From the NCBI GenBank assembly GCA_947627645.1, contig CANQWV010000006.1, positions 1 through 45,362 of the forward strand: 45,362 bases of DNA, read 5' to 3'. Below are positions 351-38,908 of this stretch, in pieces. A program made the translations under genes and the position numbers. Each line of letters opens with the position of its first letter. The first letter of the stretch is position 1. The stretch comes from an uncultured Lachnospiraceae bacterium (lineage in GTDB: Bacteria; Bacillota; Clostridia; Lachnospirales; Lachnospiraceae). The notes beneath the pieces are model-generated. The model saw nothing but the letters and a program-made list of their open reading frames with translations, searched no databases and was not told the DNA's origin.

Positions 351-614
351 CACACAATGGTACCCAAACAGTAAAGCTTAGTTTGGAACCGGCACGAAGA
401 AAATAACAAATCTGAAAACTCTCTTTGATCTGTATTAGTGATTTTTCAGATTTTCCTACATCAGCAATTGCCTTGTGTTTGCAATTTCCCATGTGTCTGC
501 TGTAGACAGATTTATTCTTAGTTACTCAGAGAGAGGACCTTAAACTCAAAAAGGCAAAAGCGAAAAAATACTTAAGGAAAATAAAAAAGGAGAAACTACA
601 GAGGAGGAATGCAT
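351..614 (+). promoter_or_regulatory. AT-rich leader of the defence operon
   Basis: This is non-coding DNA between the GC-rich block and the first gene of the four-gene operon. A small dyad TGTCT-N5-AGACA lies at 494-508 and could be an operator. I see no convincing -35/-10 pair, so the promoter is unplaced. A strong Shine-Dalgarno GAGGAGG (600-606) precedes the gene and decides its start. Confidence 0.35.
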
Positions 615-2174
615 ATGGCTTCACTAACACATGTCTGTATGTGGTCAGAAAACGGCTGGAAGCGTATCACAGCAGAACAAGCCGCCCGATTGCATCCAGG
701 TGGGACTGTATCTGCTCATAGCGGTCTGTTTATGTGTGAACTTTGCGGCCAGTATGTCATTCTTACCGATGGCGACATTAGGATACGCTACTTCAAACAC
801 AGTGCCTATGAAAAAAGCAAAGATTGTCCTGAGCGTACATTCGGAGCTGGCTATTCAATCTCTTACGGTTCTCAGGAACACGATTTACCAATCCGTATTA
901 CAAGCGTATCCTCGTCGTCTTTCAGCTTTGAAGTCGGCTTGATTCGTGCTCCAATAAGTTCTCTCAGCAAGGATTTCCGTATAGAAATCAAACCAAAGGG
1001 AGCATTTGATGTATCCTATGTGTTCACCAAAGAACGACTGAACTACGACAGTATTACATATCTTCCTATCGGTGAAAGGCCATTTGAAAAATACATTCTC
1101 AGTTTCCAAAATGGAAGCAATAGATTACGTGAATTCTGGCCGGCAGAGATTAAAGGCATTGAGCCGGAAGGTACGTTGTTTGAAAAAGTTTCCGGTAAAA
1201 AACTCTCATATGATGCCGATGTTGAGATTGGTAAAGAATACTACCTGCTAAAACGTGGCTACATCTATAGGAAGTCATTTGGCAGCGTGCGAATTCAAGA
1301 AATCATGCAAAAACGAATCGGGTGGGAAACTTGGAGTCTCTATGTGGTTTCTGCATCTGCATTTAATGAAGAGGCAGCCCGATTCTATCTCGACTTCCAT
1401 TGTCGGCTGACAGATCACCCTGTTTCATTGCAACCGGTATGGCCGTTATTTGTCGAAGGAAATTATATTGTTAAGCACAATCAAAACAGTATGTATATGT
1501 TTATCGAAGGTAATGTGGCCGCAGTTAAAACATTTCCTTCTGTGACAGTTCGTCAGCTAAATTACAATTCATCTCAGTCAAAACTATATGAGGTGTTTTG
1601 TTCCGGCAGACAGCAGTTAATATCTGCTGGCCGCACTCAAGCCTTACAATACACATACCTTTGGAAAGAGCCCCTTGACCAGGTGGGCTTGCATCCAGAA
1701 GTTTCAGTAACCGATATTGCAGGTGCTGAGGTTGATCCTGGCGAGACCGATACTCTACCGCACGGCAAAACATTGTGCTTCAAATCAACATTTGATGGAG
1801 AGCTAATTATCTTCAACAATAACCGTGTTGTAGATAAACGGAAATTATCCGCTGACAAATATATGGAGTTGAACGGACTATCCTACGGTTTAGGCGTTCA
1901 AGTTGTCATTGGCCTTGATGTCATCTGGCAAATCGATTTCAAGAAGCAACAGCCCATCGTTGTAAATGACGAAATTGAAATGCTGAAGCGAATTACTAAT
2001 GTATCAGGAGCAACAATCCTGGCTCCGCACTCTTTGCGAAATATGTTAGCGGGTATGAATTGCTATCCGCAGGTATGTCTGTGGATACGAAAATGTATTA
2101 AAAATGGCACCATTAATGAGCAATCATACCGCAGATTGCAAGAGGCCTATCGCAGCATGAATACGAATAGATAA
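615..2174 (+). CDS. Unknown protein with CoiA-like N-terminal zinc ribbon, gene 1 of defence operon
   Basis: The track starts this ORF at 609, but the GAGGAGG ribosome binding site ends only 2 bases before that ATG. The ATG at 615 has ideal spacing and gives 519 aa. Near the N terminus is CELCG (C41, C44) followed by a short beta hairpin, YFKH (H62) and DCPE (C71). This C-x2-C...FxH...C layout resembles the zinc ribbon at the start of CoiA-like nucleases. I see no nuclease motif in the rest, which looks like a beta-rich protein of about 440 residues that I do not recognise. Gene 2 starts 12 bases downstream behind its own AAGGAG site. A DNA-recognition or scaffold role is inference from context. 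Confidence 0.75.
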   Translation: MASLTHVCMWSENGWKRITAEQAARLHPGGTVSAHSGLFMCELCGQYVILTDGDIRIRYFKHSAYEKSKDCPERTFGAGYSISYGSQEHDLPIRITSVSSSSFSFEVGLIRAPISSLSKDFRIEIKPKGAFDVSYVFTKERLNYDSITYLPIGERPFEKYILSFQNGSNRLREFWPAEIKGIEPEGTLFEKVSGKKLSYDADVEIGKEYYLLKRGYIYRKSFGSVRIQEIMQKRIGWETWSLYVVSASAFNEEAARFYLDFHCRLTDHPVSLQPVWPLFVEGNYIVKHNQNSMYMFIEGNVAAVKTFPSVTVRQLNYNSSQSKLYEVFCSGRQQLISAGRTQALQYTYLWKEPLDQVGLHPEVSVTDIAGAEVDPGETDTLPHGKTLCFKSTFDGELIIFNNNRVVDKRKLSADKYMELNGLSYGLGVQVVIGLDVIWQIDFKKQQPIVVNDEIEMLKRITNVSGATILAPHSLRNMLAGMNCYPQVCLWIRKCIKNGTINEQSYRRLQEAYRSMNTNR

Positions 2175-2185
2175 GGAGATGCATT

Positions 2186-4951: not shown

Positions 4952-5961
4952 TGAACAAGTATAATGGGCTGCTTTCGTCAGTGGCGCACAAGTATCATAT
5001 CTGCAAAGGAACACGAGAAACAGAGAATGAATGGAAAACTCGTCTGGTGTATAGTATCTGTGGAATGATGGCGTATGCTTCGCTCTGGGACGACTCGGAA
5101 GAAGACCCCATTTCCATTGTGCACTTAAAAAGAAAAGTCCGCAGTATGCTTGCAAATTACAAATCAATGTACCCGGAGCTTTCTGGCAGCTTACCATATG
5201 TTTCCGAGGAACTCGAAGATGAGATTGTAAATCAATTTTTAAGTACGGGAGTGATTTATCACCGCCCTAACCGAATAGTCCCATCAATGAAGCATGAAGA
5301 ACCGTTTGGCGATATCTTATTTCAAAGAGGCGTTGCTCTGGATAGTATTTCCTGCGTATCCGGTATTGGGTTTTATTCAAAACAGTATGGAGCAAAAAAT
5401 CCAGATAGGATAAAGGCAATGTTCGGTCTCGAACAAGAGAATTTACAAGCATTGTGGCGTATAACGCTATCTTCTGCTTCGTGGAAATCCAATCTGTCGT
5501 TTGAGCAAAATACAGAGTACCTTCGCTTAAAACAACCCTTCTCTCAAGGGTACTGGGTAAACAAGCCGGATACGACTGGTACTGTTTCGATTCTTCGAAC
5601 CGGAATGAAAGGTTCACAGTTGTACTATCTTTACCGCTATTCTGGTACTACGATAGAAGTCAGCCCGCTCCCACAGTGGCAGGTAGAGTCCTACAATTAC
5701 AGATCGCTTGCATGTGCTTGTCTCTCAACCTATGGAACATTGCCACCAATAGAGTATTTCGAAGATGGACCATTAGTCCATGTATATATGAATTATTTGC
5801 TCCCACCACGTGAACTTGAGTCTTTAAAACTCTACAGCTGGCCTGAGATATGCACATCACTCCCGTGCAATTTTAGGCGAAAACTCTCAATAGAAGTCTT
5901 TACAGTCATTAAAAATGTTCTATCTGATAAGGGATATGAATTTAAAGGAGGGACAATCTGA
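4951..5961 (+). CDS. Unknown 336-aa protein, gene 3 of defence operon
   Basis: No domain is recognised. It is a soluble-looking protein with no signal peptide, no membrane segment and no obvious catalytic motif. The N-terminal half is helical and charged; the C-terminal half is rich in Tyr, Trp and Leu. Its start overlaps the stop of gene 2 and its TGA overlaps the ATG of the helicase (TGATG), so the last three genes are translationally coupled and probably made in fixed proportion. Its place directly before a DruE-like helicase is like that of the small hypothetical proteins in Druantia type I operons, but no homology is claimed. Confidence 0.75.
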   Translation: MNKYNGLLSSVAHKYHICKGTRETENEWKTRLVYSICGMMAYASLWDDSEEDPISIVHLKRKVRSMLANYKSMYPELSGSLPYVSEELEDEIVNQFLSTGVIYHRPNRIVPSMKHEEPFGDILFQRGVALDSISCVSGIGFYSKQYGAKNPDRIKAMFGLEQENLQALWRITLSSASWKSNLSFEQNTEYLRLKQPFSQGYWVNKPDTTGTVSILRTGMKGSQLYYLYRYSGTTIEVSPLPQWQVESYNYRSLACACLSTYGTLPPIEYFEDGPLVHVYMNYLLPPRELESLKLYSWPEICTSLPCNFRRKLSIEVFTVIKNVLSDKGYEFKGGTI

Positions 5962-8900
5962 TGCCAAATGGAGCAAATTCTGTTCATAAGCAGTTGCGAA
6001 CGGAGTTGGAAGACTATATTAAATCACAGTATTTCGGAAAGTCTCCCCTCCTGCTCTCTGCCTTAAGCAATCATATTGATGATGAGGGACTGCTTTACCA
6101 GAAACCCTTTATTGAGTCATCTCCGGCATACGTTGCTGTCCAAAACGGCATTGAAACAGCATCCATAGAATCTTGGCTGAAAGATTATTTTTTACAGTTG
6201 GCAGAAGCTGGTATCGGGGTTTTCCCATCTCCATTTGCTCACCAGATATCTGCGCTTGAAGCAGCAACCAGAGGTGAAAACCTGTTTGTGTCAACGGGTA
6301 CCGGCTCTGGTAAAACTGAGTGCTTTATGTGGCCGCTTCTTGCGAAGATGGCTACTGAAGCAAGAGACTCCAAAGAATCATGGGCAAAACGAGGTGTTCG
6401 TACAATTATTATGTACCCCATGAACGCCCTTGTTTCAGATCAGGTTAGCCGACTCAGGAGGATGATTGGAGATCCTGATAAGAAGTTTATCAAGATATTC
6501 AGAAACACCTGCGGTAACGAAGTTCGCCGTCCCCAATTTGGTATGTATACTGGTCGAACCCCATACCCTGGAGCGCAGCCTTCTACAGAACAGGATAGAA
6601 AACTCGAAAAAACTTTGGCCAGAATGTCTTTCCCGCAAAGTGATTCTGAACAGGAATATTTCAATCACCTTCTCAAAGAGGGAAAGATCCCCGCAAAGGC
6701 AGATATGCATCAGTTTCTGCAAGGGCTTCACGAGAGTAGGCATATTCCAAACGATGAGGATGCAGAGCTAATAACTCGCTTTGAAATGCAGCAATTTTGC
6801 CCAGACATTCTCATCACAAACTATTCTATGCTGGAATATATGTTGCTACGCCCCAGAGAACAGAAAATCTGGGATGATACTCGCGAGTGGCTTGCTTCGA
6901 ACAACGAAAACAAATTGCTGTTTGTTATTGATGAAGCACACATGTACCGTGGTTCTTCAGGCGGTGAAGTTGCGTTGCTGATTCGCAGACTTTTCCATAA
7001 ACTTGGCATTAGCCGTGACCGCGTGCAATTTATACTCACAACCGCAAGTATGCCCAACAAGAATCAGCAAGACGTTGATTCAGTAATGAAATTCGCAAAT
7101 GAGTTTACTGCTTCCGACAAAGCAACCCGGTTCTGCTATCTCACCGGCGAAAGAGAAGTCATTGATGGTCAGTTGAAATATGACATACCCGCTGAGCTTC
7201 TCTTAAGGTCAGATCCTAGCCAATTTGAGGACAAGGATGACTTAAAGCTTTCTGCTCTCTTGTCGTTCTGGCGTCAATTGGAAGGCTTTGACCAGAGCAT
7301 CAACTCCATGAAAGCGATCTGCAGCTGGATGTACGACAATCTTGTCTATTATCGCCCGTTCCATGAACTCATCAAGTATTGCCGTGGGAATGCAGTATCT
7401 CTTGGAGAATTGTCTTCTGGTATCTTTCCGGAGCTCAGTCAAGAAAATGCTCTAAAAGCGGTCAGTGTCCTTCTGGCAATTGCACCGCTTGCCAAAAACG
7501 CTAGGGGCTTTGTCCTTTTCCCTGCACGCATGCATATGCTTTTTAAAGGGATTTCTGGAGTATATGCCTGCGCCAATGCGAATTGTAGCTGTTCTCATTC
7601 GGAAGGCGGTCTCACTTTAGGCGAGGTTTATTTGTCTGATGGTAATTTGACCTGCCCCCATTGTGGCAGTGTGGTCTATGAGCTATATAACGACAGACGC
7701 TGTGGTGCGCTATTCTTCAAGGGCTATGTCCTTGAAGATGATTCAGAACTTCATGGAAATGTATACCTGTGGCGCTACCCCGGTCAGTTAATGGATCACA
7801 GGATGAAAGAAGTACATCTGTTTATTCCAACTGACGATTTTGAGCTACCTGTAAAACAGGGTAAAAATGCCATCAAACCCTGTTATCTTGATGTGAAGAG
7901 CGGGTTTATCAACTTTACGGATGACTCTTCCGCTGGTAAGCCATGGATTAGAAAGCTATACTACTGCAACTACTCTGCAAAAGGCAGACCGCAGATCATT
8001 ACCTTCCCGACCTGCCCTCATTGCAGGCACCAACTTTCTACATCGCAGCTTACCTCATTCAGCACTCGAGGTAATCAGTCTTTCTTCAACTTGATTAAGT
8101 CGCAGTTCCAACTGCAACCTGCTGTACCAGGAAAGGACAGTGATCCTGATCGTTTTCCTAACGAGGGACGCAAGGTTTTGCTTTTCTCTGACAGCCGTCA
8201 ACGTGCAGCAAAACTGGCTAGAGATATGTCTGATGCTTCGGACATTTCTGCTGCAAGGCAGTTATTTGCAATAGCGATCAAAACAATGGAAGATCAAACA
8301 ATCGAGCAATCCATGAATACGCTGTACGATTATTTCTGCCTTGCATCTGGTCAGCGTCATGTGCAGATGTTCCATGCCGATGAACGCACAAAATTCGTTG
8401 AAGATTGTGCTTCCGCGCTGAATAATTACAATCGATGCGTAAAACGGGGAAGAGACTACGCTCCGCGATTTACGATTGCGAACGCGCCTGTACAGATGCA
8501 AGAATACCTTCTTCGACTGTTCGCTGGAGGTTATAACACTTTGTACGACTCCGCTACGAGCTGGATTGAACCTACCGATCAGGCACTTTTTGATGCTGTC
8601 GATGCTCTCGAGGAAAACCATGTGACGGTCACTGATGAGGAGTTTATCAATCTCTTTAATGCTTGGATTCTATCGATCTGTGATATGTCTACTGCCCTTG
8701 GCCATACCATCAATGATATGGTTCGGTTAAAGGTTCGCCCAAAGCGAGGTGGTTATGGACTCGATAAAGATTGGGAGTTTTCGAAAGTCATCCGAGAGAT
8801 CATGGGTTGGAGTGACAGAAATGAAACTGAGATGGCTTGGAAACGAGTATTGAAAGAAGCATTCCTTGACTCAGCGCAACCTGATAACGGCAAACTATAT

Positions 8901-11207
8901 ATTGATCTTTCCAGAGTAAAAACACGTTATGATGCTACGCATGTATGGTACAAGTGTGAGCAGTGCTCTGAGCTGACACCTTTCTTCCTAAAAGGCAGAT
9001 GCCCAAGCTGCGGTTCTACTCATATCCACAAGATGGAATCCAACGAATACGAAGCACTTAGTTTCTGGAGAAGGCCAGTTGCTGACGCGGTTCAAGGTGA
9101 GCCAATCCATGTGATCGACACAGAGGAGCATACTGCTCAGCTCTCACATAAAGACCAGCGTGACGACCTTTGGAGTAAGACCGAACAATATGAATTACGC
9201 TTCCAGGACTTGATTCAAGATGGTGAAACGCCTGTCGATATCCTCAGCAGCACAACCACCATGGAAGTTGGTATTGATATTGGCTCCCTAGTTGCAGTTG
9301 GTCTGCGAAACATTCCTCCAATGCGTGAAAACTATCAACAGAGAGCTGGCCGTGCGGGCCGACGTGGATCTAGTTTATCCACAATCGTTACCTTCTGTGA
9401 AGATGGTCCTCATGATACATTGTACTTCAATGACCCGATTCCCATGTTCCGTGGCGATCCTCGCAGGCCGTGGATCGATGTGCGAAGCGAGAAACTCCTC
9501 CAGCGCCATCTGGCTATGGTTGTCTTACAGGAATTTCTCGCAGAAAAACATATGAGCCTTGATACAGTTCCCGCAGCCGTTTTTCTCGAAGATGTCCTTG
9601 ACAGTTTCAAGAACTATCTTGCTTCCTACAGTGTTGATAAGGATAAACTCCTTTTGCCTATTGGAGTGACATTTCATTATTCAGAGTTTGCGGATGAACT
9701 CAAAGAGGCCCTTGATACACTTAAAGAAAAATGCCATACTCATCCCGAGCTTTTTGGTGTAGATGAAGGCGCCAAGGAACGCGATGCAAAAGTTCTCTTG
9801 GATGCTCTTTATGAAGAAGGTATCATCCCAACATATTCGTTCCCGAAGAATATCGTAAGTACCTATATTCCGGATATGTATGGGAAGATTCTCTACGAAG
9901 TTGACCGCGGACTTGATGTAGCTATAGGGGAATATGCTCCTGGTAGAGCACTTGTGGTTGATAAACAAACCTATCAGATTGGCGGATTTTACTATCCTGG
10001 AAGTGAACGTCGTCATGGTCAATCACTCACCCCGGCTCGTGCCTATACAGAAGATCCAAATTATGTGAAGCAGATTATCTCTTGTCCTGAGTGCGGCTGG
10101 TTTGGTTTGATGGAAGAAAACACAAAACGGTGCCCATTCTGTGGGAACGGTGATCTCAAAATCACTCGTGAAATGATGCGTCCTTGGGGCTTTGCACCAA
10201 GAAATGCTGAAGCAATACCGGATATTCAGCTATCAGAAGAATATACCGCTGTACAGCAGCCTCTATATTCAACTCTACCAGATGCAGAAGAAATGAAACT
10301 CGCCCCAGGCTGCAAGAACATACGAATCGCTTCACGAACAAATCAGCGAATCATCATGCTAAATAAAGGATCGGATGACAAGGGCTTTATGGTCTGCAAA
10401 GATTGTGGCGCTGCTATGCCAGGCGACGATATTTCTGTTCTGAATGACGTTAACAGGCCATACAAGTCGAAGTATGCTCGAAGCAGATGCCGTCACGGTA
10501 ATTCCTTTAATGTAAATCTTGGCTATGACTTCATAACTGATATGTTGGTTCTTGAATTCACAATTGACGACAAGCTTATTGATGCACGCCGGAATGATAA
10601 TCCATGGCTTAGCCGTGCAGCTCAATCCTTATCTGAAGCGCTACGACTGGTAGCAAGCAAAAAACTTGATGTTGAATTCACCGAACTTGTTACCGGTTAT
10701 CGTCTCAGGACTGGGACTGAAGCCTCCTATGTCGATATCTATCTTTACGATAGCCTATCGAGCGGCGCTGGTTACGCTGTCAGTGTAGCCGATGCAATTG
10801 CCGAACTACTATCTGATATGAAAGATCTGTTGAGTTCCTGTGATTGTGGATCTGCGTGTTCCAAATGCCTGAAGCATTACAGGAACCAATATGTACATGG
10901 CATGCTTGACCGCTTTGCTGCGCTACAGCTCTTTGAATGGGGCGTTGATGGAATAAAAGCATCTCCTATCAAACAAGAGACACAGATTAACATGATTATG
11001 CCTTTGGCGAATATTCTTAAGCAATCAGGCTGTGAAATCACTGCTGATAGTGAGATTACCGCAACTGGGCGAAGAGGCAAAAAGAAAGTTGTCATCTACC
11101 CGGCAATGTGGGTTGAACCACATGCGACAAACACCATTTTCGTGAGCGATGCTTATATTAAATATGCCAAGCCATATGCCGTCCAAAAAATTCTCGACAA
11201 CATTTGA
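5961..11207 (+). CDS. Giant DEAD/DEAH helicase with C-terminal DUF1998 (DruE-like)
   Basis: A 1748-aa superfamily 2 helicase. A Q-motif-like segment (FAHQ, ~95) precedes Walker A TGTGSGKT (112-119), a YPMNALVSDQ motif Ia, DEAH (324-327), a TTAS motif III (~357) and a motif VI QQRAGRAGRRG (~1126-1136). The helicase halves are separated by about 700 residues containing CxxC zinc pairs (CPHC near 570 and 685). Further zinc ribbons follow at ~1000-1025 and ~1374-1400. Near 1625-1650 is the CDCGSACSKCL cluster typical of DUF1998. One chain combining helicase and DUF1998 at this size matches DruE of Druantia; YprA-type housekeeping helicases are much shorter, and DISARM splits the parts into DrmA and DrmB. 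It presumably translocates on phage DNA. Coupled to gene 3 by a TGATG overlap. Confidence 0.9.
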   Translation: MPNGANSVHKQLRTELEDYIKSQYFGKSPLLLSALSNHIDDEGLLYQKPFIESSPAYVAVQNGIETASIESWLKDYFLQLAEAGIGVFPSPFAHQISALEAATRGENLFVSTGTGSGKTECFMWPLLAKMATEARDSKESWAKRGVRTIIMYPMNALVSDQVSRLRRMIGDPDKKFIKIFRNTCGNEVRRPQFGMYTGRTPYPGAQPSTEQDRKLEKTLARMSFPQSDSEQEYFNHLLKEGKIPAKADMHQFLQGLHESRHIPNDEDAELITRFEMQQFCPDILITNYSMLEYMLLRPREQKIWDDTREWLASNNENKLLFVIDEAHMYRGSSGGEVALLIRRLFHKLGISRDRVQFILTTASMPNKNQQDVDSVMKFANEFTASDKATRFCYLTGEREVIDGQLKYDIPAELLLRSDPSQFEDKDDLKLSALLSFWRQLEGFDQSINSMKAICSWMYDNLVYYRPFHELIKYCRGNAVSLGELSSGIFPELSQENALKAVSVLLAIAPLAKNARGFVLFPARMHMLFKGISGVYACANANCSCSHSEGGLTLGEVYLSDGNLTCPHCGSVVYELYNDRRCGALFFKGYVLEDDSELHGNVYLWRYPGQLMDHRMKEVHLFIPTDDFELPVKQGKNAIKPCYLDVKSGFINFTDDSSAGKPWIRKLYYCNYSAKGRPQIITFPTCPHCRHQLSTSQLTSFSTRGNQSFFNLIKSQFQLQPAVPGKDSDPDRFPNEGRKVLLFSDSRQRAAKLARDMSDASDISAARQLFAIAIKTMEDQTIEQSMNTLYDYFCLASGQRHVQMFHADERTKFVEDCASALNNYNRCVKRGRDYAPRFTIANAPVQMQEYLLRLFAGGYNTLYDSATSWIEPTDQALFDAVDALEENHVTVTDEEFINLFNAWILSICDMSTALGHTINDMVRLKVRPKRGGYGLDKDWEFSKVIREIMGWSDRNETEMAWKRVLKEAFLDSAQPDNGKLYIDLSRVKTRYDATHVWYKCEQCSELTPFFLKGRCPSCGSTHIHKMESNEYEALSFWRRPVADAVQGEPIHVIDTEEHTAQLSHKDQRDDLWSKTEQYELRFQDLIQDGETPVDILSSTTTMEVGIDIGSLVAVGLRNIPPMRENYQQRAGRAGRRGSSLSTIVTFCEDGPHDTLYFNDPIPMFRGDPRRPWIDVRSEKLLQRHLAMVVLQEFLAEKHMSLDTVPAAVFLEDVLDSFKNYLASYSVDKDKLLLPIGVTFHYSEFADELKEALDTLKEKCHTHPELFGVDEGAKERDAKVLLDALYEEGIIPTYSFPKNIVSTYIPDMYGKILYEVDRGLDVAIGEYAPGRALVVDKQTYQIGGFYYPGSERRHGQSLTPARAYTEDPNYVKQIISCPECGWFGLMEENTKRCPFCGNGDLKITREMMRPWGFAPRNAEAIPDIQLSEEYTAVQQPLYSTLPDAEEMKLAPGCKNIRIASRTNQRIIMLNKGSDDKGFMVCKDCGAAMPGDDISVLNDVNRPYKSKYARSRCRHGNSFNVNLGYDFITDMLVLEFTIDDKLIDARRNDNPWLSRAAQSLSEALRLVASKKLDVEFTELVTGYRLRTGTEASYVDIYLYDSLSSGAGYAVSVADAIAELLSDMKDLLSSCDCGSACSKCLKHYRNQYVHGMLDRFAALQLFEWGVDGIKASPIKQETQINMIMPLANILKQSGCEITADSEITATGRRGKKKVVIYPAMWVEPHATNTIFVSDAYIKYAKPYAVQKILDNI

Positions 11208-11552: not shown

Positions 11553-13694
11553 TCAAATCATCCCGAAGTGCTTCAATGCCTCCTTAATCGCTTTTTCCTT
11601 ATCCGGCGGACATTGCGGCTGTTTAGCGTCCTCAGACTTTGGCTTATTATAATTTTCTCGCTCGATGATACCGCATTTCTGCTTCACCTGAGCAATATAC
11701 AGGCTGCTGACCTTCAAACCGGTATATTCCAGCACATAATCCTTAATCTCTTGATAGGTAGCTTTCTTCTCGGCGGCTGTCAAATCCATCTCGTCCATGG
11801 TGAGTTCAACCTCGATATGTTGCTTGACATTGAGTTTGGACAATAAGCATACCGTTTCCACATGCACACTGTTTCCAAACATATCTACCGGGCAGACTTT
11901 TTGCACCTCATACCCCCGCCCGCCCAGATATTTCAGATCCCGCGCAAGCGTCGCGGAATCGCAGCTCACGTACACGATGCGCTGCGGCTGCATCTGTACC
12001 ATCGTTTCCAACACGCTCTCCTCGCAGCCTTTGCGCGGCGGATCGACGACGATAACATCCGCGCGGATACCTTCCTCTGCACATTTTTGTATCTGCCCTG
12101 CGCATTTCTGTGGCTCCCTTGCACATTTCTGTGCCTCCCCCACGCATTTCTGTATACCTTCCACGTATTTCTGTGGCTCCTCTACGCATTTTTGTATACC
12201 TTCCGCGCATTTCTGTGGCTTCCCGGTACTTTTCTGCGCTTCTTCCGCATATTTCTGCGGCAGCACATCCTCCGCCCTGCCGACGTAGAATTCCGCATTT
12301 GTGATACCGTTCAGTTCCGCGTTCTGCCGCGCGTCGCGGATCGCTTCCGGCACAATCTCCACACCGTAGACTTTCCGTGCCTTCTTCGCCAGAAAAAGAG
12401 ATATCGTCCCGATGCCGCAGTACAGATCCCAGACGGTCTCCTGCCCGGTCAGGCCCGCATATTCCAGCACCTTTTCGTACAGCTTCTGCGTCTGCAGCGG
12501 GTTGACCTGATAGAACGACAGCGGTGAAATTCGGAAGCGCACGTCCCCGATCAGATCCTCGATATACTCTGTGCCCCACAACACTTTCAGATCTTTCCCC
12601 ATGATCACATTCGTCTTCTCAAAGTTGCTGTTCAGCGTGACGCTCGTCATGCCGGGAATTGCGGCGAGCGTCGCGCAGAGTTCCTCGCTGTGCGGCAGGC
12701 TTCGTCCGTTGACGACGAGACAGACCATGATCTGTCCGGTCCGGAAACCGACGCGCGTCATGACGTGCCGCACCAGCCCGCTCCCGGTCTTCTCATCGTA
12801 GGGCTCGATGCCATACCGCTCCATATGCTTAAGCACTGCGTCCAGAATCCACGCATTCACCTTCGATCCCAGCAGGCAGTCCAGGCACTCGATGATCGTG
12901 TGCGTCCGCCCCGCATAGAACCCGGCGATCAGCCGTCCGTCGCGGCTCCGCCCGATCGGAAACTGCGCCTTATTGCGATAGCGCAGCGGCGTCACCCCAT
13001 CGGCAAGCGCTCTCGCACCCAAGAGCGCTTCCAAACTCGCAGCTGCTCTCGCGCTCTCGACCGCTTCCATGCTCGTAGCTACTTTCGCACTTCCAATCGC
13101 TTCCATGCCCGCAGGCGCCTTCGCACTTCCAACCGCTTCCATGCCCGCAGCTGCTCTCGCGCTCTCGACCGCTTCCATACCCGCAGCTGCTCTCGCACTT
13201 CCAATCACTTCCATGCCCGCAGACGCTCTCGCGCTCCCGACCGCTTCCATGCCCGCAGGCGCCTTCGCACTTCCAATCGCTTCCATGCCCGCAGACGATT
13301 TCTCTCCGGCGACCGCATCTTCGACATTGAACGCATCCATCCCGATGATCGGTTCCATCGGCGGATTCTCGATCCCACCGATGCGCCGCAGGTTGTTTCG
13401 CACCTTGTTCTCCTTGAACGCAAGCTGCGCCTGATAGCGCATTGCCTGGATCTGACAGCCGCCGCACTGCCTCGTCACCGGGCAGGGCGGTTCGACGCGA
13501 TCCGGGCTTTCCTCTATCAGGCGCATCAGCCTCGCGTATCCGTATGTCTTTTTCATCTTCATGACCTTGGCCTCGACCACATCGCCGATCACCGTGTCTT
13601 TCACAAAAAATGTGATCCCGTCGTATTTACCGACGCCCAGCCCTTCATTGCTGAGATCCTCGATTTTCAAAATGATTCTATCATCTTTCTTCAA
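11553..13694 (-). CDS. rlmD: 23S rRNA (uracil-C5)-methyltransferase RlmD/RumA with repeat insertions
   Basis: It uses SAM to methylate uracil-1939 of 23S rRNA. An N-terminal TRAM domain (1-60) is followed by an Fe-S cluster motif (C71, C77, C80, with C270 or C273), the SAM loop DLYCGIGT (423-430), VVDPPRKG (549-556) and the catalytic Cys in YVSCDS (C578). The start is TTG at 13694 behind AGGAG. Two tandem arrays are inserted in the core: eight 12-residue units (135-230) between the Fe-S segment and the central domain, and eight 7-residue units (487-542) just before VVDPPRKG. All catalytic motifs survive, so it may still be active. From about residue 613 the composition drops to that of the island and the last ~100 residues look element-derived, as seen where ICEs integrate in rumA genes. 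Confidence 0.9.
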   Translation of the reverse strand: MKKDDRIILKIEDLSNEGLGVGKYDGITFFVKDTVIGDVVEAKVMKMKKTYGYARLMRLIEESPDRVEPPCPVTRQCGGCQIQAMRYQAQLAFKENKVRNNLRRIGGIENPPMEPIIGMDAFNVEDAVAGEKSSAGMEAIGSAKAPAGMEAVGSARASAGMEVIGSARAAAGMEAVESARAAAGMEAVGSAKAPAGMEAIGSAKVATSMEAVESARAAASLEALLGARALADGVTPLRYRNKAQFPIGRSRDGRLIAGFYAGRTHTIIECLDCLLGSKVNAWILDAVLKHMERYGIEPYDEKTGSGLVRHVMTRVGFRTGQIMVCLVVNGRSLPHSEELCATLAAIPGMTSVTLNSNFEKTNVIMGKDLKVLWGTEYIEDLIGDVRFRISPLSFYQVNPLQTQKLYEKVLEYAGLTGQETVWDLYCGIGTISLFLAKKARKVYGVEIVPEAIRDARQNAELNGITNAEFYVGRAEDVLPQKYAEEAQKSTGKPQKCAEGIQKCVEEPQKYVEGIQKCVGEAQKCAREPQKCAGQIQKCAEEGIRADVIVVDPPRKGCEESVLETMVQMQPQRIVYVSCDSATLARDLKYLGGRGYEVQKVCPVDMFGNSVHVETVCLLSKLNVKQHIEVELTMDEMDLTAAEKKATYQEIKDYVLEYTGLKVSSLYIAQVKQKCGIIERENYNKPKSEDAKQPQCPPDKEKAIKEALKHFGMI
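11841..11864 (-). other. Candidate attachment site of the mobile island inside rlmD
   Basis: The codons for HVETVCLL of RlmD mark the point where GC-rich rlmD sequence changes to the AT-richer DNA that continues through the pseudogene and defence operon. VETV..LS is the usual end of RumA-family proteins, and the 3' end of rumA is a known ICE integration hotspot in Firmicutes. The ~95 following codons restore an open frame. The second att copy would lie left of the window, so the core cannot be delimited here. Confidence 0.5.
12069..12236 (-). repeat. Eight 21-bp tandem repeats inside rlmD
   Basis: Eight contiguous units encode heptapeptides of the QKCAEGI/QKCVEEP type (RlmD residues 487-542). 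The first unit is degenerate. There are no spacers, and the length is a whole number of codons, so the frame is kept. Confidence 0.9.
13005..13292 (-). repeat. Eight 36-bp tandem repeats inside rlmD
   Basis: Eight contiguous 12-residue units of the AGMEAVGSARAA type (RlmD residues 135-230), with the outer units most diverged. Although 36 bases matches a common CRISPR repeat length, there are no spacers and the array is translated. Confidence 0.92.
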
Positions 13695-13937: not shown

Positions 13938-14885
13938 TCAAAACTCCGAGCTTTTCCGCAGGTTTGACTCGAACAGCCGGTTGAAACCGAGCCAGTCTGT
14001 GTTGCCACCGGCACTTTTTAACACCTCGCGCATTGTCTCAAGCTTCGCGTCTGTGTTGTCCGCGTAATTCAGCGCCATCGCCTCCGCAAGCGCCGGTTTC
14101 TTCGGAGAGCCGAACTCAAGCTCGCCATGATGCGCCAGGATGCAATGCTGAAGCTCGCTTGCCAGCTTTTTCGGAAAGTCTTTGATGTGGCGGCAGCCGA
14201 AACCGACCAGCTCGCTCCCCATCACGATGTGCCCGAGGAGCTGCCCGTCGTCCGTATAGTCGTTTTCCGGAAAATTCGAGATCTCCTTGAGCTTGCCGAT
14301 GTCATGGAACAGTGCCGCCGTCAACAGCAGATCCTTATTCAGATACGGATATTGCTGCGTGTAAAAGACACAAAGCTTTACAACCCCAAGCGTGTGCTCC
14401 AGCAGCCCGCCGACAAAACTGTGATGCACCGTCTTCGCCGCCGAGTGTTTTTTGAACGCTTCGACGAAGGAAGGATTGTCGATGTAATACATATGGATCA
14501 GCTTCTGCAGATATGGGTTCTCCACCTGCTGCATGATTTCCATCAGTTCGTCGTACATCGAGTCAATATCCTTCTCGCTCACCGGAAGGTAGTCGGCCGC
14601 CACATACTCATTCGCCCGTGCCACGCGCGCACGCCTGACGCTGAGCTGGAGATTGCCCTGAAAATTCGTCACATCGCCGGAAATGAATACGTAATCCATC
14701 ACTCCAAACTCCTCGATCCCGGACGAATTCGGATCCCAGATTTTCGCGTCGATCGTCCCTGTCTTATCCTGGAAGATCACATTCTCGTAGATCTTTCCGT
14801 TCTTCGCAGTCGCGGACTGCCTGTACTTGCAGAGGTAAATATCATTAATCTTGTCCCCTTCGTGAAACGTCTCAATAAACTGCAT
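13938..14885 (-). CDS. yhaM: YhaM-type 3'-5' exoribonuclease
   Basis: A 315-aa protein with an N-terminal OB fold (about 12-90) for nucleic acid binding and a C-terminal HD domain; ALFHDIGK carries the metal-binding H194-D195 and LLEHTLG another His (H164). This is the layout and length of YhaM, a 3'-5' exonuclease acting on RNA and single-stranded DNA in Firmicutes. The track's longer start (14960) is rejected: the ATG at 14885 follows GGGAGG at proper spacing and gives the family's usual N terminus (MQFIETFHEGD). Monocistronic in appearance, with its own promoter at 14984-15012. Confidence 0.9.
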   Translation of the reverse strand: MQFIETFHEGDKINDIYLCKYRQSATAKNGKIYENVIFQDKTGTIDAKIWDPNSSGIEEFGVMDYVFISGDVTNFQGNLQLSVRRARVARANEYVAADYLPVSEKDIDSMYDELMEIMQQVENPYLQKLIHMYYIDNPSFVEAFKKHSAAKTVHHSFVGGLLEHTLGVVKLCVFYTQQYPYLNKDLLLTAALFHDIGKLKEISNFPENDYTDDGQLLGHIVMGSELVGFGCRHIKDFPKKLASELQHCILAHHGELEFGSPKKPALAEAMALNYADNTDAKLETMREVLKSAGGNTDWLGFNRLFESNLRKSSEF

Positions 14886-14983
14886 CGCTGCCTCCCACCA
14901 ATCAAATTGCCGGATCAGCCGTTCGCCGCCTGCTCTGGCAGCGTTTTCCTTTCCGTCCAATATCCGGCGTTCATTCTTGATTC

Positions 14984-26665: not shown

Positions 26666-29182
26666 CTACTTCACCTTTACCTTACATTTTACTTTCTTCT
26701 TGCCGACTTTCACGGTGATCGTGGCGCTGCCTTTCTTCTTTGCCTTGATCACGCCCTTGCCCGATACCGTCGCCACGGACGAATCCGACGTCGAGTATTT
26801 AACCTTCTGTATGCAGGTGATCGGGCTCACGGTCGTCTCCAAGGTGAAGCTCTTTCCCTTTTTCAGCGTCACGGATTTTTTGTTTAGGGTGACCTTCGTG
26901 CAGGCCACCTCGTTTTTCTGGACGGTCACCTGGATGTCTTCGGAAAGGCCGCTCTTCAGCGTAACTGTGACCGTCGCCCTGCCCTTTTTCGCCTTTGCTT
27001 TGATCTTTCCCTTGCTGTTCACCGTGACAATCTTTGGATTACTGGACTTCCAGGACGCCACCGCGTCGCCGCTCGCCAGCCCGCTCACCTTGATCTTGTT
27101 GGTAGACTGTTTCGTCTTCAGCTTGATAGACGTGGCGTTCAGTTCCATTGCGGGCGTCAGCTTCGCCACCGCCCTGCTCTCTGTCGCTCCGCAGACCGTG
27201 CAGGTACGTGTCTCGGTTCCCTCTGCCAGTACGGTCGGCTCCTTTGTGACTGTATATGCCCCAAAAGTGTGAACCGTATGCTCCGATTTATTTTCGGTCT
27301 GCCCTGGAGTTTTCTCAGTCTGCGGCGGATTGGGTTCTATCTGTTCAGATTCCTTTTCTAATTTTAGCGTTACCCTGAGCGTCAATTCATCTCCCCTATT
27401 CCCCAATCCGCAGTCAAACACATAAGAGATTTCTTCCGGAAGTGCATTCTTCGGAAATTCAATTACACCACTCGTACTCATCGCCGGTACATCTGTGGTA
27501 AAGCTGACCTTCGCCAGATTTCCGTTTCCCACAAGTTCCGCCATATCCAACTGCCAGCCGTTTGCCTTATACGGAAGCCGGACCATTTTTCGCTGGTTAT
27601 CGCCCCACAATAAATCCAAGGCAAAATTTTTGCTTATATCCAAACTCGTTAACTGATTTCCCTCACAGTGCAGAAACTGTAAGTCATTATTCTTGCTTAC
27701 ATCCAGGCTCGTCAACTGATTTCCCCCACATTCCAAATCCGTAAGGGCGTTATTCTTGCTTACATCCAGATCCGTCAACTGATTTCCTCCACATTCCAAA
27801 TTCGTCAGGGCATTATTCTTGCTTACATCCATGTCCGTCAATTCGTTGCCATAACAATTCAACTGCACCAAGTTGGTATTTTTGCTTACATCCAGGCTTG
27901 TCAACGAGTTACCACCGCACATCAATATTGTTAAGGCTGTGTTTTCGCTTACATCCAGGCTCGTTAATTCGTTGCTGGAACAATTCAGTTCCGCCAGGGC
28001 GGTATTCATATTTACGTCCAGACCCATTAACTGGTTCATGCAGCAATCCAACTCCGTAAGGGCGGTATTCTTACTTACATCCAGGTTCGTCAGCTCGTTA
28101 TCATAACAATACAACTCCGTCAAGGCAGTATTCCCTACGTCCAGATTCGTCAATCCATTTCCATAACAATACAAAACCTTTAAGTCGGTATTATTGCTCA
28201 CATCCAGTCTCATCAGCGAATTATAGGAACAAGTCAGACGCTTCAGGTCAATATTCGTGCTCACATCCAGACTACTCAGCAGATTGCCGTCACACTGCAG
28301 CTCTGTCAGGGCAGTATTCTCGCTTACATTCAGGCTCCCCAATTCGTTCGTACTACACCCCAAATATGTCAATGCAATGTTTTTGCTTACGTCCAAGCTT
28401 GTCAGCCCATTTCCAGAACAGTCCAGCGTTGTCAAGACAGTATTCTCGCTTACATCCAAGCTCGCCAAATCATTGTTAGAACAATTCAAATTCTGCAGAT
28501 TCAGAAAATATTCGATTCCTTTCAGATTACCAATATCAGCAAATGAAACATCTATTACTTCTACCTTATCCGCTTCTTTCTTCGAAAGGCTCCCGTCTCC
28601 ATTCGCATCAAATCCCTGCTCTTTTATATAGTTAAGGAAATTTTCATCCGGGAAACAGCTTGCATCCAACGTCGCCACTACCTCCGAGCCGTCTGCTGCC
28701 ACATCGACCGCTTCCAGCTGAGAGTCTTCATTCCATTCCGCCTCTCCCGAAGCCAGGTCGACCGACAGCTCCGCGTCTGCCTCTATCGAAGCTTCCGCTA
28801 CCGCGTCATATTCCCCGTCTGTTTCATCTGCCGTGAAGAGCTCTGGCTGCGGCAGTCCCGCGAAATCTTCCGCCGCGTCTTCTATAATCTCATCCGAGAA
28901 TTTGCCGTCCGCAGGGGCAGTCTCCGCTGTCTCCTCTGCGAACCCATCGTCCGCAAAAACAGCCTCCTCTGTCTCCTCAGCAAGATACGCTTCGGTACAG
29001 GCAGTCGTATCCTCCGCCGCCTCAAACGCCGCTTCCCCTATGCCGGGCTCTGGCGTCCCCATGTTTTCTGCTGCCACCGTGACCGCCTCTACTGTCTCCT
29101 GTGCAAGCGCCGCCGTGCCGCTGCCAAATACAGAAACAACCGTCAGCGACACCGCCATTGCAAAAGCTGTTTTCCTTTTCAT
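26666..29182 (-). CDS. Secreted leucine-rich-repeat protein with C-terminal BIG2 domains
   Basis: 838 aa from the ATG at 29182 behind AAGGAGGAG; the track's start overlaps that site. A signal peptide is followed by an acidic, Ala/Glu-rich low-complexity region, then an EF-hand-like loop DANGDGSLSKKE, then about fifteen leucine-rich repeats of 21 residues with the core LDVSxNTALTxLxCxxNxLTS. After a linker come two bacterial Ig-like group 2 domains (KIKVSGLASGDAVASWKSSN and the final TLKKGKSFTLETTVSP), ending in a Lys-rich tail. No LPXTG anchor is present. Probably displayed on or bound to the cell surface; the partner is unknown. Its promoter is at 29264-29292. Confidence 0.88.
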   Translation of the reverse strand: MKRKTAFAMAVSLTVVSVFGSGTAALAQETVEAVTVAAENMGTPEPGIGEAAFEAAEDTTACTEAYLAEETEEAVFADDGFAEETAETAPADGKFSDEIIEDAAEDFAGLPQPELFTADETDGEYDAVAEASIEADAELSVDLASGEAEWNEDSQLEAVDVAADGSEVVATLDASCFPDENFLNYIKEQGFDANGDGSLSKKEADKVEVIDVSFADIGNLKGIEYFLNLQNLNCSNNDLASLDVSENTVLTTLDCSGNGLTSLDVSKNIALTYLGCSTNELGSLNVSENTALTELQCDGNLLSSLDVSTNIDLKRLTCSYNSLMRLDVSNNTDLKVLYCYGNGLTNLDVGNTALTELYCYDNELTNLDVSKNTALTELDCCMNQLMGLDVNMNTALAELNCSSNELTSLDVSENTALTILMCGGNSLTSLDVSKNTNLVQLNCYGNELTDMDVSKNNALTNLECGGNQLTDLDVSKNNALTDLECGGNQLTSLDVSKNNDLQFLHCEGNQLTSLDISKNFALDLLWGDNQRKMVRLPYKANGWQLDMAELVGNGNLAKVSFTTDVPAMSTSGVIEFPKNALPEEISYVFDCGLGNRGDELTLRVTLKLEKESEQIEPNPPQTEKTPGQTENKSEHTVHTFGAYTVTKEPTVLAEGTETRTCTVCGATESRAVAKLTPAMELNATSIKLKTKQSTNKIKVSGLASGDAVASWKSSNPKIVTVNSKGKIKAKAKKGRATVTVTLKSGLSEDIQVTVQKNEVACTKVTLNKKSVTLKKGKSFTLETTVSPITCIQKVKYSTSDSSVATVSGKGVIKAKKKGSATITVKVGKKKVKCKVKVK
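27600..28500 (-). repeat. Array of ~63-bp leucine-rich repeat units
   Basis: Contiguous 21-codon units, some nearly identical at the nucleotide level (two adjacent copies encode NQLTDLDVSKNNALTDLECGG). One unit is a residue short (LDVGNTAL). Boundaries are approximate. The near-identity of neighbouring units suggests recent expansion. Confidence 0.85.
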
Positions 29183-29263
29183 GTCCCCATTCTCCTCCTT
29201 CACTAAATACGCAGTCGGAAGGTCAAAAAAATGCTTTTCTTCTTCCGAATTATGCCTTTTTTA

Positions 29264-29404: not shown

Positions 29405-31006
29405 CTATGGTTTTTTAACTTTCAATTCTACGATCTTCACCGACGTCACCTTATTCTTCGCAGATGAAGAACTCACGATAAACCCGATATCTGTCACAGA
29501 CTGCTTTGCAGAGATTTTCTTATTATAGGCAGTCGGACGGATGACGACGTATTTATTCTTATAGGTAAATTTGCCGCTCCACTCATTGTTTTTCTGAATC
29601 GCGTACTTAAATTTCACCTTAACTTTCCAATTGGAAATCGTCTTTTTGCTCTTATTTTTGACCGTCAGCTTGTACTGCGTATAATAGCGCTGCCCGTCAG
29701 ACCAGGAGCCCATCGCCTGCACCGTCGCTTTCGCATATTTCGAGCTGGCCTTCACCGCCTTAGATGCGGCTGTTCCGGGCTGGTTTGATTCACTCTGGTT
29801 CGTTCCACTCTGGTTTGTCTCCGTCTGTGTTGTTTCGTTTTGCGTTGTTCCGGACTGGCTGCCCGTCCCATCCTGGCTCGTCCCACCCTGCGCTGTTTCA
29901 TTCTGAGATCCGGTCTGGTTCGCCGACGGATCGTTTTCTATTGTATCAGAGTCGGCTGCCGCCGACGTCCCCGCCTTGCCTTTCGCCAGCTTGCCGCCGT
30001 AAGTCTTCACAAGCCACTGTCCGGACTTGCTCAGATTCGACCAGCTCCAACCGGACTTTTTGCCGGTACTGCTCTTCAGCAGCGCGCTGGATTCTGCTTT
30101 GTTTGAGAGATTCCACGCCACATAGCCGATGCCGTTCTTGTTCAGGAAGCTAATCCACTTATTGCCCTCCGAGGTATCCAGAGAGCCATTTCCGGACGCG
30201 TCCGAGATCCCAAACTCGCTCACAAGCAGCGGCAGCCCAGCTTTGATCGCGGTCTCCGCCTTCTGGCGGTAGGAGTCCTTGTGCGTCCCCGCATAGAAAT
30301 GCAGGGAATAGACCAGGTTGGAACCGGACAGAGGGCTCTTCGCTACCTCGTCCACATCCTGACACCAGGTCGGCGTGCCCACGATGATGATTGCGTCCTT
30401 GTCGATCTTGCGGATCGCCTTGATCACGGCCTTCGCATAGCTCTTTACGTTGCTCCAGCTCCCGCCGTTGCCGCCGTTCGGCTCGTTGCAGATCTCGTAA
30501 AGCACATTTTTTTGATTCTTATATTTCTTTGCCATCTCCCTGAAGAAACTGATGGCGGCCTTCTGCCCGGCCTTGCTGAACGGCTGGTTATTGTCGTTCA
30601 GAATATGCCAGTCGATGATCACGTACATACCGAGATCCGTCGCGGCTTTCACGCCCTCGTTGACCTTCGCCTTCAAGGCAGCCTTGTCGCCGCCCGAGCA
30701 GTACCCGCCGTACTCCGCGGTGTACATCGCCAGACGGACGGTGTTCGCGCCCCACTTGTCGCGCAGATCCTTGAATGCGGCTTTGGACACATACTCTGGA
30801 AACCACGCCAGCCCATGCGTGCTGACGCCCTTGATCTGAAAGGTTTTCCCTTTCGCGTTCACGATCCTTGTTCCCTTGACCGAAAGCTTGCCGTTCGCGG
30901 AGAGCGGCGTAGCGCCGACCGTGCAGCTCATCACCGCAAACCCAAGCACCAGGATCAGCACAAGAGTGCCGAGCCATAAGACTCCCTTTTTCTTATAATG
31001 CTTCAT
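29405..31006 (-). CDS. Secreted GH5 endoglucanase with C-terminal carbohydrate-binding module
   Basis: 533 aa from the ATG at 31006 (AGGGGGAT upstream); the track's 31087 start is unlikely. The N terminus is a signal sequence with a possible lipobox-like VMSC (C28). The catalytic domain is a family 5 barrel of the bacterial endoglucanase type: acid/base E175 in YEICNEPNG and nucleophile E264 in LLVSEFG, with HILNDNNQP before. A Gln/Asn/Ser/Thr/Gly-rich linker follows, then a ~105-residue beta-sandwich resembling a CBM2-type module (MGSWSDGQRYYTQYKLTVKN, NWKVKVKF). It should cut internal beta-1,4-glucan bonds of plant fibre. The exact CBM family is tentative. Confidence 0.9.
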   Translation of the reverse strand: MKHYKKKGVLWLGTLVLILVLGFAVMSCTVGATPLSANGKLSVKGTRIVNAKGKTFQIKGVSTHGLAWFPEYVSKAAFKDLRDKWGANTVRLAMYTAEYGGYCSGGDKAALKAKVNEGVKAATDLGMYVIIDWHILNDNNQPFSKAGQKAAISFFREMAKKYKNQKNVLYEICNEPNGGNGGSWSNVKSYAKAVIKAIRKIDKDAIIIVGTPTWCQDVDEVAKSPLSGSNLVYSLHFYAGTHKDSYRQKAETAIKAGLPLLVSEFGISDASGNGSLDTSEGNKWISFLNKNGIGYVAWNLSNKAESSALLKSSTGKKSGWSWSNLSKSGQWLVKTYGGKLAKGKAGTSAAADSDTIENDPSANQTGSQNETAQGGTSQDGTGSQSGTTQNETTQTETNQSGTNQSESNQPGTAASKAVKASSKYAKATVQAMGSWSDGQRYYTQYKLTVKNKSKKTISNWKVKVKFKYAIQKNNEWSGKFTYKNKYVVIRPTAYNKKISAKQSVTDIGFIVSSSSAKNKVTSVKIVELKVKKP

Positions 31007-31111
31007 ATTCCTATCCCCCTGCAGCCAGGCGTTTCGTCCGCTTTCCCTGAATCCTGCCGAAAAAGCATCCTCACACGGCAAGTCCATGCAGCCAATCTCA
31101 AACGTCCTGTT

Positions 31112-36921: not shown

Positions 36922-37653
36922 TCATCCGGGAAAATCCAACGTCTCCTTCGCAAAGGCAAGGCGCTCCTCGAACTGCCCGTAAAAATCCCCATTCTCGTAT
37001 GGGCGGACATAAAACAGCTCCAGCAGGAGAAGGTTGACCTTCCTCACGCCCTCATCCGTTTCCAACGCAAGTCGTTCCTGCACATCCTCCAGGAAATAAT
37101 GCCAGTCGTTCACGAAGCGTTCATAGCGGTCCAGGTTCGGCGTGTCGACCCACTTACCGACCTTCACCTTCGTCTTGTTCGGCATCGGGCACTCGTGTAC
37201 CTGAAGGAAATAGCGGAAGCCAGCTGCCTGCCGCCGCGGTAAATCACCCGCCCGGAGCTCACTGCCTGCTGCCGGTTTAGCCGTTTCTGTCGGCAGATAA
37301 TACCGCCCGAGCGGAAACAGACGGCAGATCCCCGGACGCAGCGCGTGGATGCTGCACCGCCCCGCCTTATCCAGAAACGCGCAGGTCTCGCTCTCCGCGC
37401 TCATTTTCAGATTCGGCAGGATCACGCCGTCCACCACATTCAGCTCGATCTTATCCTCCAGCAGCGCCTCAAAAGGAAGTCCCAGGCCAAGTGTCAGCCG
37501 GAAGACGTCGAGCGGGTCGAGGATTATGGAATTCCCCATCCCGCTGCAGCACGCAGAGCAACCTCTGCATCCGCCGCAGCCCGCCCGCACCATATCGTTT
37601 TTTCCGTACAATCTGCCGTCAGAGATCTCCTCCAGACTAACCTGTCGCTTCAT
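36922..37653 (-). CDS. YkgJ-family cysteine-cluster protein
   Basis: 243 aa. The Cys-rich motif CGGCRGCSACC at the start, CAFLDKAGRCSIHALRPGICRLFPLG in the middle and a later HECP match the zinc/iron-chelating UPF0153 (YkgJ) family, which binds a metal or Fe-S cluster of unknown use. An insertion of about 20 residues rich in Ala, Gly and Arg lies after RYYLP. 45 bases separate it from the downstream CDF gene on the same strand, so co-transcription of this gene into that leader is not possible (the CDF gene precedes it on the minus strand); it may instead be read through from the CDF promoter. Confidence 0.85.
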   Translation of the reverse strand: MKRQVSLEEISDGRLYGKNDMVRAGCGGCRGCSACCSGMGNSIILDPLDVFRLTLGLGLPFEALLEDKIELNVVDGVILPNLKMSAESETCAFLDKAGRCSIHALRPGICRLFPLGRYYLPTETAKPAAGSELRAGDLPRRQAAGFRYFLQVHECPMPNKTKVKVGKWVDTPNLDRYERFVNDWHYFLEDVQERLALETDEGVRKVNLLLLELFYVRPYENGDFYGQFEERLAFAKETLDFPG

Positions 37654-37699: not shown

Positions 37700-38602
37700 T
37701 CAGCATGGATTTACGTGTACCATGATGTGTTTCACCTGGCTGAACTGCTTCTCAATCCCCTCGTGCACGCGCTCTGCGATCCCGTGCGCCTCCCGGAGCG
37801 TCAGCTCTCCGTCCGCCGTAATGTCGACGTCCACATAGATCCGGCTGCCGAACGTCCTCGTGCGCAACAAATCGACGCCCTGCACGCCCTGCTGTCCCAG
37901 CACGAACGCGCGCAGCTCCTGTTCCATGACCGGATCGCAGGCCTTGTCTACCATCTTGTCAATCGCGTCCCGGAAGATGTCCACGGCCGCCTTCAGGATA
38001 AACAGGCAGATCACGACGCTCGCGAGCGGATCCATGACCGGGAAGCCCATGCGCGCCCCGAGAATGCCGACGAACGCGCCGACCGACGAGAGCGAGTCCG
38101 AGCGATGGTGCCAAGCGTCCGCCATAAGCGCCGAAGAATTGATTTTCTTCGCATAATACCTCGTGTACCAGTACATCCACTCCTTGACCACAACCGAGAC
38201 GACCGCGGCAGCCAGCGCCAGAATGCCCGGAACCGCAAGGTTTTCGTAATGTCCCGTAGCGATCTTCTCCAGCCCGGACCAGCCGATCTTGTACCCGGTG
38301 ACCGCCAGCACCGCCGCAAGCAGGATCGCCGCGACACACTCCATGCGCTCGTGCCCGTACGGGTGCTCCCGGTCCGCCTCTTTCCCCGAGAGACGAATTC
38401 CCACCATGACAAGGATCGTGCTGAAAACATCCGAAGCGGAGTGAACCGCATCGGAGACCATCGCCCCGGAGGACGCCAGGATTCCGGCGAAAAGCTTCGC
38501 AATCGAGAGCAGAAGATTCACTGCAATGCTCACCCGCGACACACGCATCGCCGTCTGCTCCATCGCGCTGATGTTTTTTTCTTTCATTTTCAGCTTACCC
38601 AT
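37700..38602 (-). CDS. Cation diffusion facilitator, probable Co/Ni efflux (CzcD-like)
   Basis: 300 aa from the ATG at 38602 behind AGGGGGAT; the track's 38674 start runs into the leader terminator and is rejected. Six membrane segments are seen. Metal-site motifs are DAVHSASD (D51, H54, D58) in helix 2 and ADAWHHRSD in helix 5, followed by a C-terminal cytoplasmic ferredoxin-like domain (IYVDVDITADGELTLREAH). CDF proteins export divalent metals in exchange for protons. The leader carries a riboswitch of the NiCo (czcD) type, which points to cobalt or nickel as substrate. The YkgJ-type gene follows 46 bases downstream on the same strand. Confidence 0.9.
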   Translation of the reverse strand: MGKLKMKEKNISAMEQTAMRVSRVSIAVNLLLSIAKLFAGILASSGAMVSDAVHSASDVFSTILVMVGIRLSGKEADREHPYGHERMECVAAILLAAVLAVTGYKIGWSGLEKIATGHYENLAVPGILALAAAVVSVVVKEWMYWYTRYYAKKINSSALMADAWHHRSDSLSSVGAFVGILGARMGFPVMDPLASVVICLFILKAAVDIFRDAIDKMVDKACDPVMEQELRAFVLGQQGVQGVDLLRTRTFGSRIYVDVDITADGELTLREAHGIAERVHEGIEKQFSQVKHIMVHVNPC

Positions 38603-38664: not shown

Positions 38665-38790
38665 AAAAAAGCACCTGCGGAACACACGTAACCTACTGTC
38701 CCGCAGATGCTTCCAAATGCTCATCCACTGTCCTGAAAAGACCCGGCCGGGCGGTTTGCACCGCCGCCTGTTCAGCTCGTACCGTACTGT
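38665..38790 (-). ncRNA. NiCo (czcD) riboswitch with intrinsic terminator
   Basis: On the minus strand the leader reads CTGAACAGGC (38775), a GGCGGT/ACCGCC hairpin, GCCGGGTC, GGACAG, an ATG...CAT stem and GCGGGACAGT (38704-38695). This order and the repeated GGACAG/GGGACAG and CAGGC elements match the NiCo aptamer as I remember it. The last aptamer part also forms the 5' arm of a 12-bp terminator, GCATCTGCGGGA/TTCCGCAGGTGC, followed by six T. Metal binding and termination would exclude each other, giving an ON switch. Confidence 0.75.
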
Positions 38791-38879
38791 ATCAATGCCA
38801 TCCGGTCAGCGGCTGTATGGGGCAAAATTTCCCGAACCGCAAAACCAGAGACGACACTGCGTGCAAATTATTTCTAAAA

Positions 38880-38908
38880 AGAATACCAGCGGTTTAAATT
38901 CTTGTCAA
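38880..38908 (-). promoter_or_regulatory. Promoter of the riboswitch-CDF transcript
   Basis: TTGACA (38908-38903), 17 bases, TATTCT (38885-38880) on the minus strand. The start would be near 38873, leaving a leader of about 270 bases that contains the whole aptamer and terminator. Confidence 0.75.

Follow-up and report, generated by a model that had tools for sequence, protein, structure and literature searches.

A NiCo (czcD) riboswitch predicted to switch on a cation efflux gene in an uncultured Lachnospiraceae bacterium

In this study, we identified a NiCo (czcD) riboswitch upstream of a cation diffusion facilitator (CDF) gene in a 45,362-nucleotide stretch of DNA from an uncultured Lachnospiraceae bacterium (assembly GCA_947627645.1, contig CANQWV010000006.1; hereafter, the window). 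Our overall reading, to which we assign a probability of about 0.8, is that the element is an ON switch for this CDF exporter and probably also for the YkgJ-like gene behind it, and that the metal is most likely Fe(II). Membership of the NiCo class and action as a transcriptional ON switch are almost certain, with metal binding and the ON direction predicted from the sequence. The features of the locus described below are on the reverse (−) strand.

An aptamer of the NiCo class

The covariance model RF02683 matches positions 38785-38694 (−) over all 96 model positions with 55.0 bits (cut-off 37, E-value 5.3e-10). An earlier note on this DNA had recognized the order of the NiCo aptamer and proposed such an Infernal search, which bears it out; its placement of the leader at 38665-38908 was likewise correct, 38908 being the first base of the TTGACA −35 box and 38665 the last U of the terminator. 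In a search of the whole genome (2.73 Mb, 88% complete), this was the sole NiCo copy (E-value 7.6e-12). The aptamer consists of helices P1-P4 (38694-38785). All four non-standard pairs marked by cmscan are in P2 and P3; in the free fold of the aptamer, P1-P4 are intact and these pairs disappear, P2 being formed by GGC and GGCGGU and closed by a GCAA loop. The whole leader is more stable than shuffled sequences (z = −2.8, 1/200).

Both hallmarks of the class, a four-helix junction and a pair of conserved G runs, are present here by folding and motif. The first G run is located in CCGGGUC (38740-38746) and the second in GCGGGACAG (38696-38704), which also contains the P1 3′ strand; the runs proper are at 38744-38742 and 38702-38700. 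They putatively correspond to G45-G47 and G87/G88, respectively, described as metal ligands in the czcD crystal structure (PMC7689651), an equivalence set by the conserved motif and not by structure. As judged from its sequence and predicted fold, 38785-38694 is a full-length, ordinary, and intact member of the known NiCo (czcD) class.

A terminator that competes with the aptamer

The intrinsic terminator (38665-38712) competes with the aptamer. Its 5′ arm (38712-38697) pairs with the 3′ arm (38684-38669) and is followed by UUUUUU at 38670-38665. The stem has 16 bp (−27.6 kcal/mol), or 14 bp without the two U's of the tail, 12 of which are Watson-Crick pairs. The earlier note had thus found a real terminator and understated its stem as 12 bp. 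The 5′ arm spans the whole P4 3′ strand (38709-38703), the G run at 38702-38700, and half of the P1 3′ strand. As the note had also proposed, the last element of the aptamer therefore doubles as the terminator 5′ arm, and metal binding should turn the gene on. The ligand-free folding energies (−52.1 kcal/mol for the terminator conformation, −35.9 kcal/mol for the forced aptamer) agree with this predicted default-OFF, metal-ON logic, and relief of the terminator by metal is the published mechanism of the class (PMC7689651).

We propose the following switching scheme. Without metal, nascent 38712-38697 would leave the aptamer and pair with 38684-38669, and the resulting terminator would end transcription ahead of the gene. 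At sufficient levels of divalent transition metal, ions held by both conserved G runs would stabilize the four-way junction, 38712-38697 would stay in P4 and P1, the terminator would be absent, and the exporter would be made. The physiological metal would most likely be Fe(II); the range is possibly wider, taking in Co, Ni, Zn, and Mn once they reach toxic amounts.

Promoter and controlled genes

The predicted promoter (38880-38908) reads TTGACA-17-TATTCT with a TG extension and matches the consensus at 10 of 12 positions. The pattern scan found two such sites, against 1.3 expected in shuffled sequences, and the promoter sequence is nearly identical in three close relatives (L026, L028, and L173).

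The gene after the terminator (37700-38602, 300 amino acids) encodes a CDF cation efflux transporter with matches to PF01545 (5.6e-50), PF16916 (3.9e-22), and TIGR01297 (248.7 bits), so the cation efflux gene that the earlier note had placed here is confirmed, as is the metal transporter gene expected downstream of a riboswitch of this class. The protein has both the Cation_efflux and ZT_dimer domains, an intact A-site of the HD-HD type (H54, D58, H165, and D169), and an intact B-site (D77/H80/H84). Its ATG at 38602 is preceded by a good Shine-Dalgarno sequence, AGGGGG. A GTG at 38674 was considered as the start and rejected, since it falls within the terminator and the extra residues lack conservation; homology opens at residue 25 of that open reading frame (ORF), which is the ATG at 38602. 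Only one CDF was found in this genome, and at 88% completeness a further exporter could be missing from the data.

The next gene (36922-37653) starts 46 bp after the CDF gene and encodes a YkgJ-type CxxCxxCC protein (PF03692, 3.8e-9); the two are probably co-transcribed. With the window excluded, a YkgJ homolog follows the CDF in the closest relatives only (10/80 genome-contig loci and 5/166 NiCo loci); given this conservation, it may serve the lineage as an accessory metal-binding protein. As a query against viral contigs, the YkgJ-like protein gave no matches.

Distribution and gene context in relatives

Among nearby genomes, 40 of 116 contained NiCo matches; at the level of the order, the figure was 92 of 392 genomes, and at that of the phylum, 95 of 399. 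For comparison, 166 NiCo loci were drawn from these nearby, order-wide, and phylum-wide genomes; the named relatives are chiefly uncultured Lachnospiraceae. The first G run ([CT]GGG) is conserved in 165 of the 166 related aptamers and the second (GGGA) in all 166, and in 159, a coarse scan found a terminator whose stem draws on the aptamer 3′ end. The next gene encodes a CDF in 139 of the 166 loci; P-type ATPases of the P2 kind account for the majority of the other 25. Two of the P2-like ATPases (L168 and L242) have calcium pumps as their best NCBIfam matches, below the cut-off; similar ones, judged by sequence likeness, are found behind NiCo in L003, L150, and others.

Seven relatives (L002, L007, L021, L152, L166, L194, and L198) have NiCo directly upstream of CDFs with an ND-DD A-site, the quartet of the Mn-type CDF clade (PMC5703985). 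These loci bear on the debate about the ligand.

The metal and alternative explanations

The name NiCo derives from aerobic in-line probing. In a later anaerobic study of a czcD riboswitch, reviewed in PMC7689651, the RNA responded to Fe(II), Co(II), Ni(II), and Zn(II), and weakly to Mn(II); only the availability of Fe(II) and Mn(II) fits the affinities, those for Ni and Co (61-120 nM) being too weak for their cellular availability. A metalation calculator for E. coli gave occupancies of 74.6% for Fe(II) and 0.01% for Co and found zinc unable to fill the riboswitch RNA in cells, and the reassignment was called apposite (PMC9434800). A review enters NiCo as Fe2+ (PMC11477304), and another source describes the ligand as debated (PMC9294342).

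The CDF itself weakly points in the same direction by its likeness to MamM, MamB, and FieF over the Co(II)/Ni(II) exporter DmeF. The scores were 206.3 bits for MamM (NF033615, cut-off 350), 198.8 for MamB (NF033616, cut-off 350), and 146.9 for FieF (NF050169, cut-off 420), and DmeF (NF033827) was lowest with 35.4 bits (cut-off 250). By these sequence profiles, MamM, MamB, and FieF are the nearest named relatives of the CDF, yet the CDF is not a member of any of these groups. Members of the WmFieF-like Fe/Zn-CDF cluster typically combine a histidine in the first position of the A-site with the lack of a His-rich loop (PMC1868760). We lean somewhat towards Fe(II) as the principal physiological metal; it is more likely than cobalt or nickel, which the earlier note had named as the probable substrate and which neither the recent reviews nor the profile scores favor.

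Several points weigh against Fe(II). Another group interpreted its E. coli riboswitch reporters as Co/Ni-selective (PMC7917058), and Furukawa 2015, as cited in PMC7689651, reported induction by Co and Ni in Clostridium. The iron-riboswitch experiments used other members of the class. The A-site composition predicts the CDF substrate poorly, and HD-HD is the commonest quartet among zinc CDFs (PMC5703985). Furthermore, the CDF reached no substrate-specific (equivalog) cut-off among FieF, MamM, MamB, and DmeF.

The switch could instead respond to an excess of divalent transition metals in general, with the CDF as a broad-range or Zn-type exporter. The E. coli data with Mn, Fe, Co, Ni, and Zn (PMC7689651) would fit such a role, as would the frequency of the HD-HD quartet in zinc CDFs, the finding of a single CDF in the genome, and the ND-DD CDFs behind NiCo in the seven relatives. 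This explanation is rather unlikely given the calculated inability of zinc to occupy the RNA in cells, and the count of a single CDF is tempered by the incompleteness of the genome, from which a second exporter may be missing. The ND-DD loci do imply that the riboswitch alone fixes no single substrate.

Sensing and export of Co(II) or Ni(II) by the same riboswitch and ON mechanism would agree with the original in-line probing and the Clostridium expression data, both summarized in PMC7689651, and with the Co-specific E. coli reporters (PMC7917058). The weak Ni and Co affinities, the negligible calculated occupancy by Co, and the place of DmeF as the weakest match among the CDF equivalogs make it doubtful. 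A decayed riboswitch, that is, a real match whose switch no longer functions, is very improbable: the score is below that of most same-genus members and the 5′ leader has diverged with loss of an upstream element (see below), but the four helices, both G runs, the overlapping terminator, the promoter, and the Shine-Dalgarno sequence are all intact, and the arrangement is kept in the closest relatives.

With this locus, one well-formed member is added to a known riboswitch class, and the sole CDF exporter found in this Lachnospiraceae genome gains a predicted metal-dependent regulation. The class name NiCo should not be taken for the substrate.

A putative additional helix in clostridial relatives

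The first nine aptamer positions (ACAGUAcAA) are unpaired in the Rfam model. In clostridial relatives, a conserved element, UUUGCRCUGCA, is present 4-35 bases upstream of the aptamer, with linkers of either 4-10 or 17-35 bases; the long linkers tend towards hairpins (mean z = −1.75). Apart from a single C-A mismatch, the element complements CAGUACAA, and ACAGUACAA is conserved in the aptamer and supposedly unpaired. In relatives with the consensus element, such as L009 and L211, its segment UUUGCACUG would pair with ACAGUACAA. Of the 86 loci that have ACAGUACAAA, 76 also have the element, against 5 of the 80 loci lacking ACAGUACAAA (Fisher p ~1e-29, uncorrected for kinship), and element and partner were found together in 13 of 40 families sampled.

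The proposed helix, which we designate P0, would directly abut P1. In an alignment of 20 sequences, standard pairs make up 97.8% of the P0 cells. Compensatory changes from U-A to C-G (L211) and from G-C to A-U (L160) are seen, and the C-A mismatch becomes C-G or U-A in four sequences. Covariation was not significant in a whole-strand permutation of P0 (20%) and was borderline in column shuffles, mostly due to two sequences; extra sampling of three lineages added little. Both strands hardly vary, which leaves the covariation support weak. On these sequence comparisons, we lean slightly towards an extra helix P0, without counterpart in the Rfam model, in many clostridial NiCo riboswitches. P0 should favor P1 by keeping ACAGU off the P1 strand ACUG. 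It may already be described in the original riboswitch papers. If P0 is true, conserved nucleotides that are unpaired in the current model would be explained, and reporter or sensor constructs cut at the Rfam boundaries would omit part of the natural switch.

Two other explanations of the element were considered. Pairing with the aptamer 3′ end, preferred by RNAalifold, is disfavored: 38 of the 80 loci without ACAGTACAA keep GGGACAG at the 3′ end, and only four of these have the element. A protein-binding DNA operator at the upstream TTTGCACTGCA, which contains TGCAnTGCA, is less likely, because the element tracks the aptamer ACAGTACAA, an A-to-G variant disrupts the palindrome but retains a G-U pair, and the long linkers to the aptamer are mostly hairpins. 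Separately, in three relatives (L067, L079, and L147), the element UUUGCACUGC (or UUUUCACUGC) persists while the presumed aptamer partner has changed, which P0 does not explain.

In the window, the 5′ leader ahead of the aptamer (38786-38874, 89 bases) has a large hairpin (−29.6 kcal/mol, z = −2.2 to −3.0) where relatives have the P0 element. The 5′ end of the hairpin keeps the remnant UUUGCAC of that element, whose consensus is otherwise lost, and the partner carries a 5-base insertion. Both P0 strands are lost in the close relative L173. The lineage of the window appears, on balance, to be replacing or losing P0, and these losses indicate that P0 is not needed for class membership.

Other features of the window

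Four packed ORFs are located at 609-11207 (+). The last encodes a helicase of 1748 amino acids, with a score of 1735 bits against DruE1 from the Druantia defence system. Upstream of it are an ORF for a protein with weak similarity to DruD (22 bits) and two others that gave no Pfam matches. From these matches, the region is probably a diverged Druantia type I system. The products of the adjoining genes at 11553-13694 (−) and 13938-14960 (−) scored weakly in PADLOC, against mad2 (73 bits) and a Cas3-like HD domain (33 bits), and these are possibly further defence genes. In addition, a GH5 cellulase with a carbohydrate-binding domain (29405-31087, −) adjoins a surface protein with leucine-rich repeats and immunoglobulin-like domains (26666-29203, −).

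Comparison with known systems

The element shares with the NiCo (czcD) class (RF02683) its sequence, four-helix aptamer, both G runs, overlapping terminator, and place before a CDF gene, and differs in its shorter P2. Unlike many clostridial members, it no longer has the conserved upstream element, and the large hairpin occupies its leader. With DmeF, the CDF of the window shares the CDF superfamily, at 35 bits against a cut-off of 250. With MamM/MamB and FieF (YiiP) of the Fe/Zn-CDF group, it shares PF01545 and PF16916 and the lack of a His-rich loop. Its closest solved structures are the YiiP/FieF proteins of Shewanella and E. coli, and its HD-HD A-site is distinct from the DD-HD quartet of FieF (PMC5703985).
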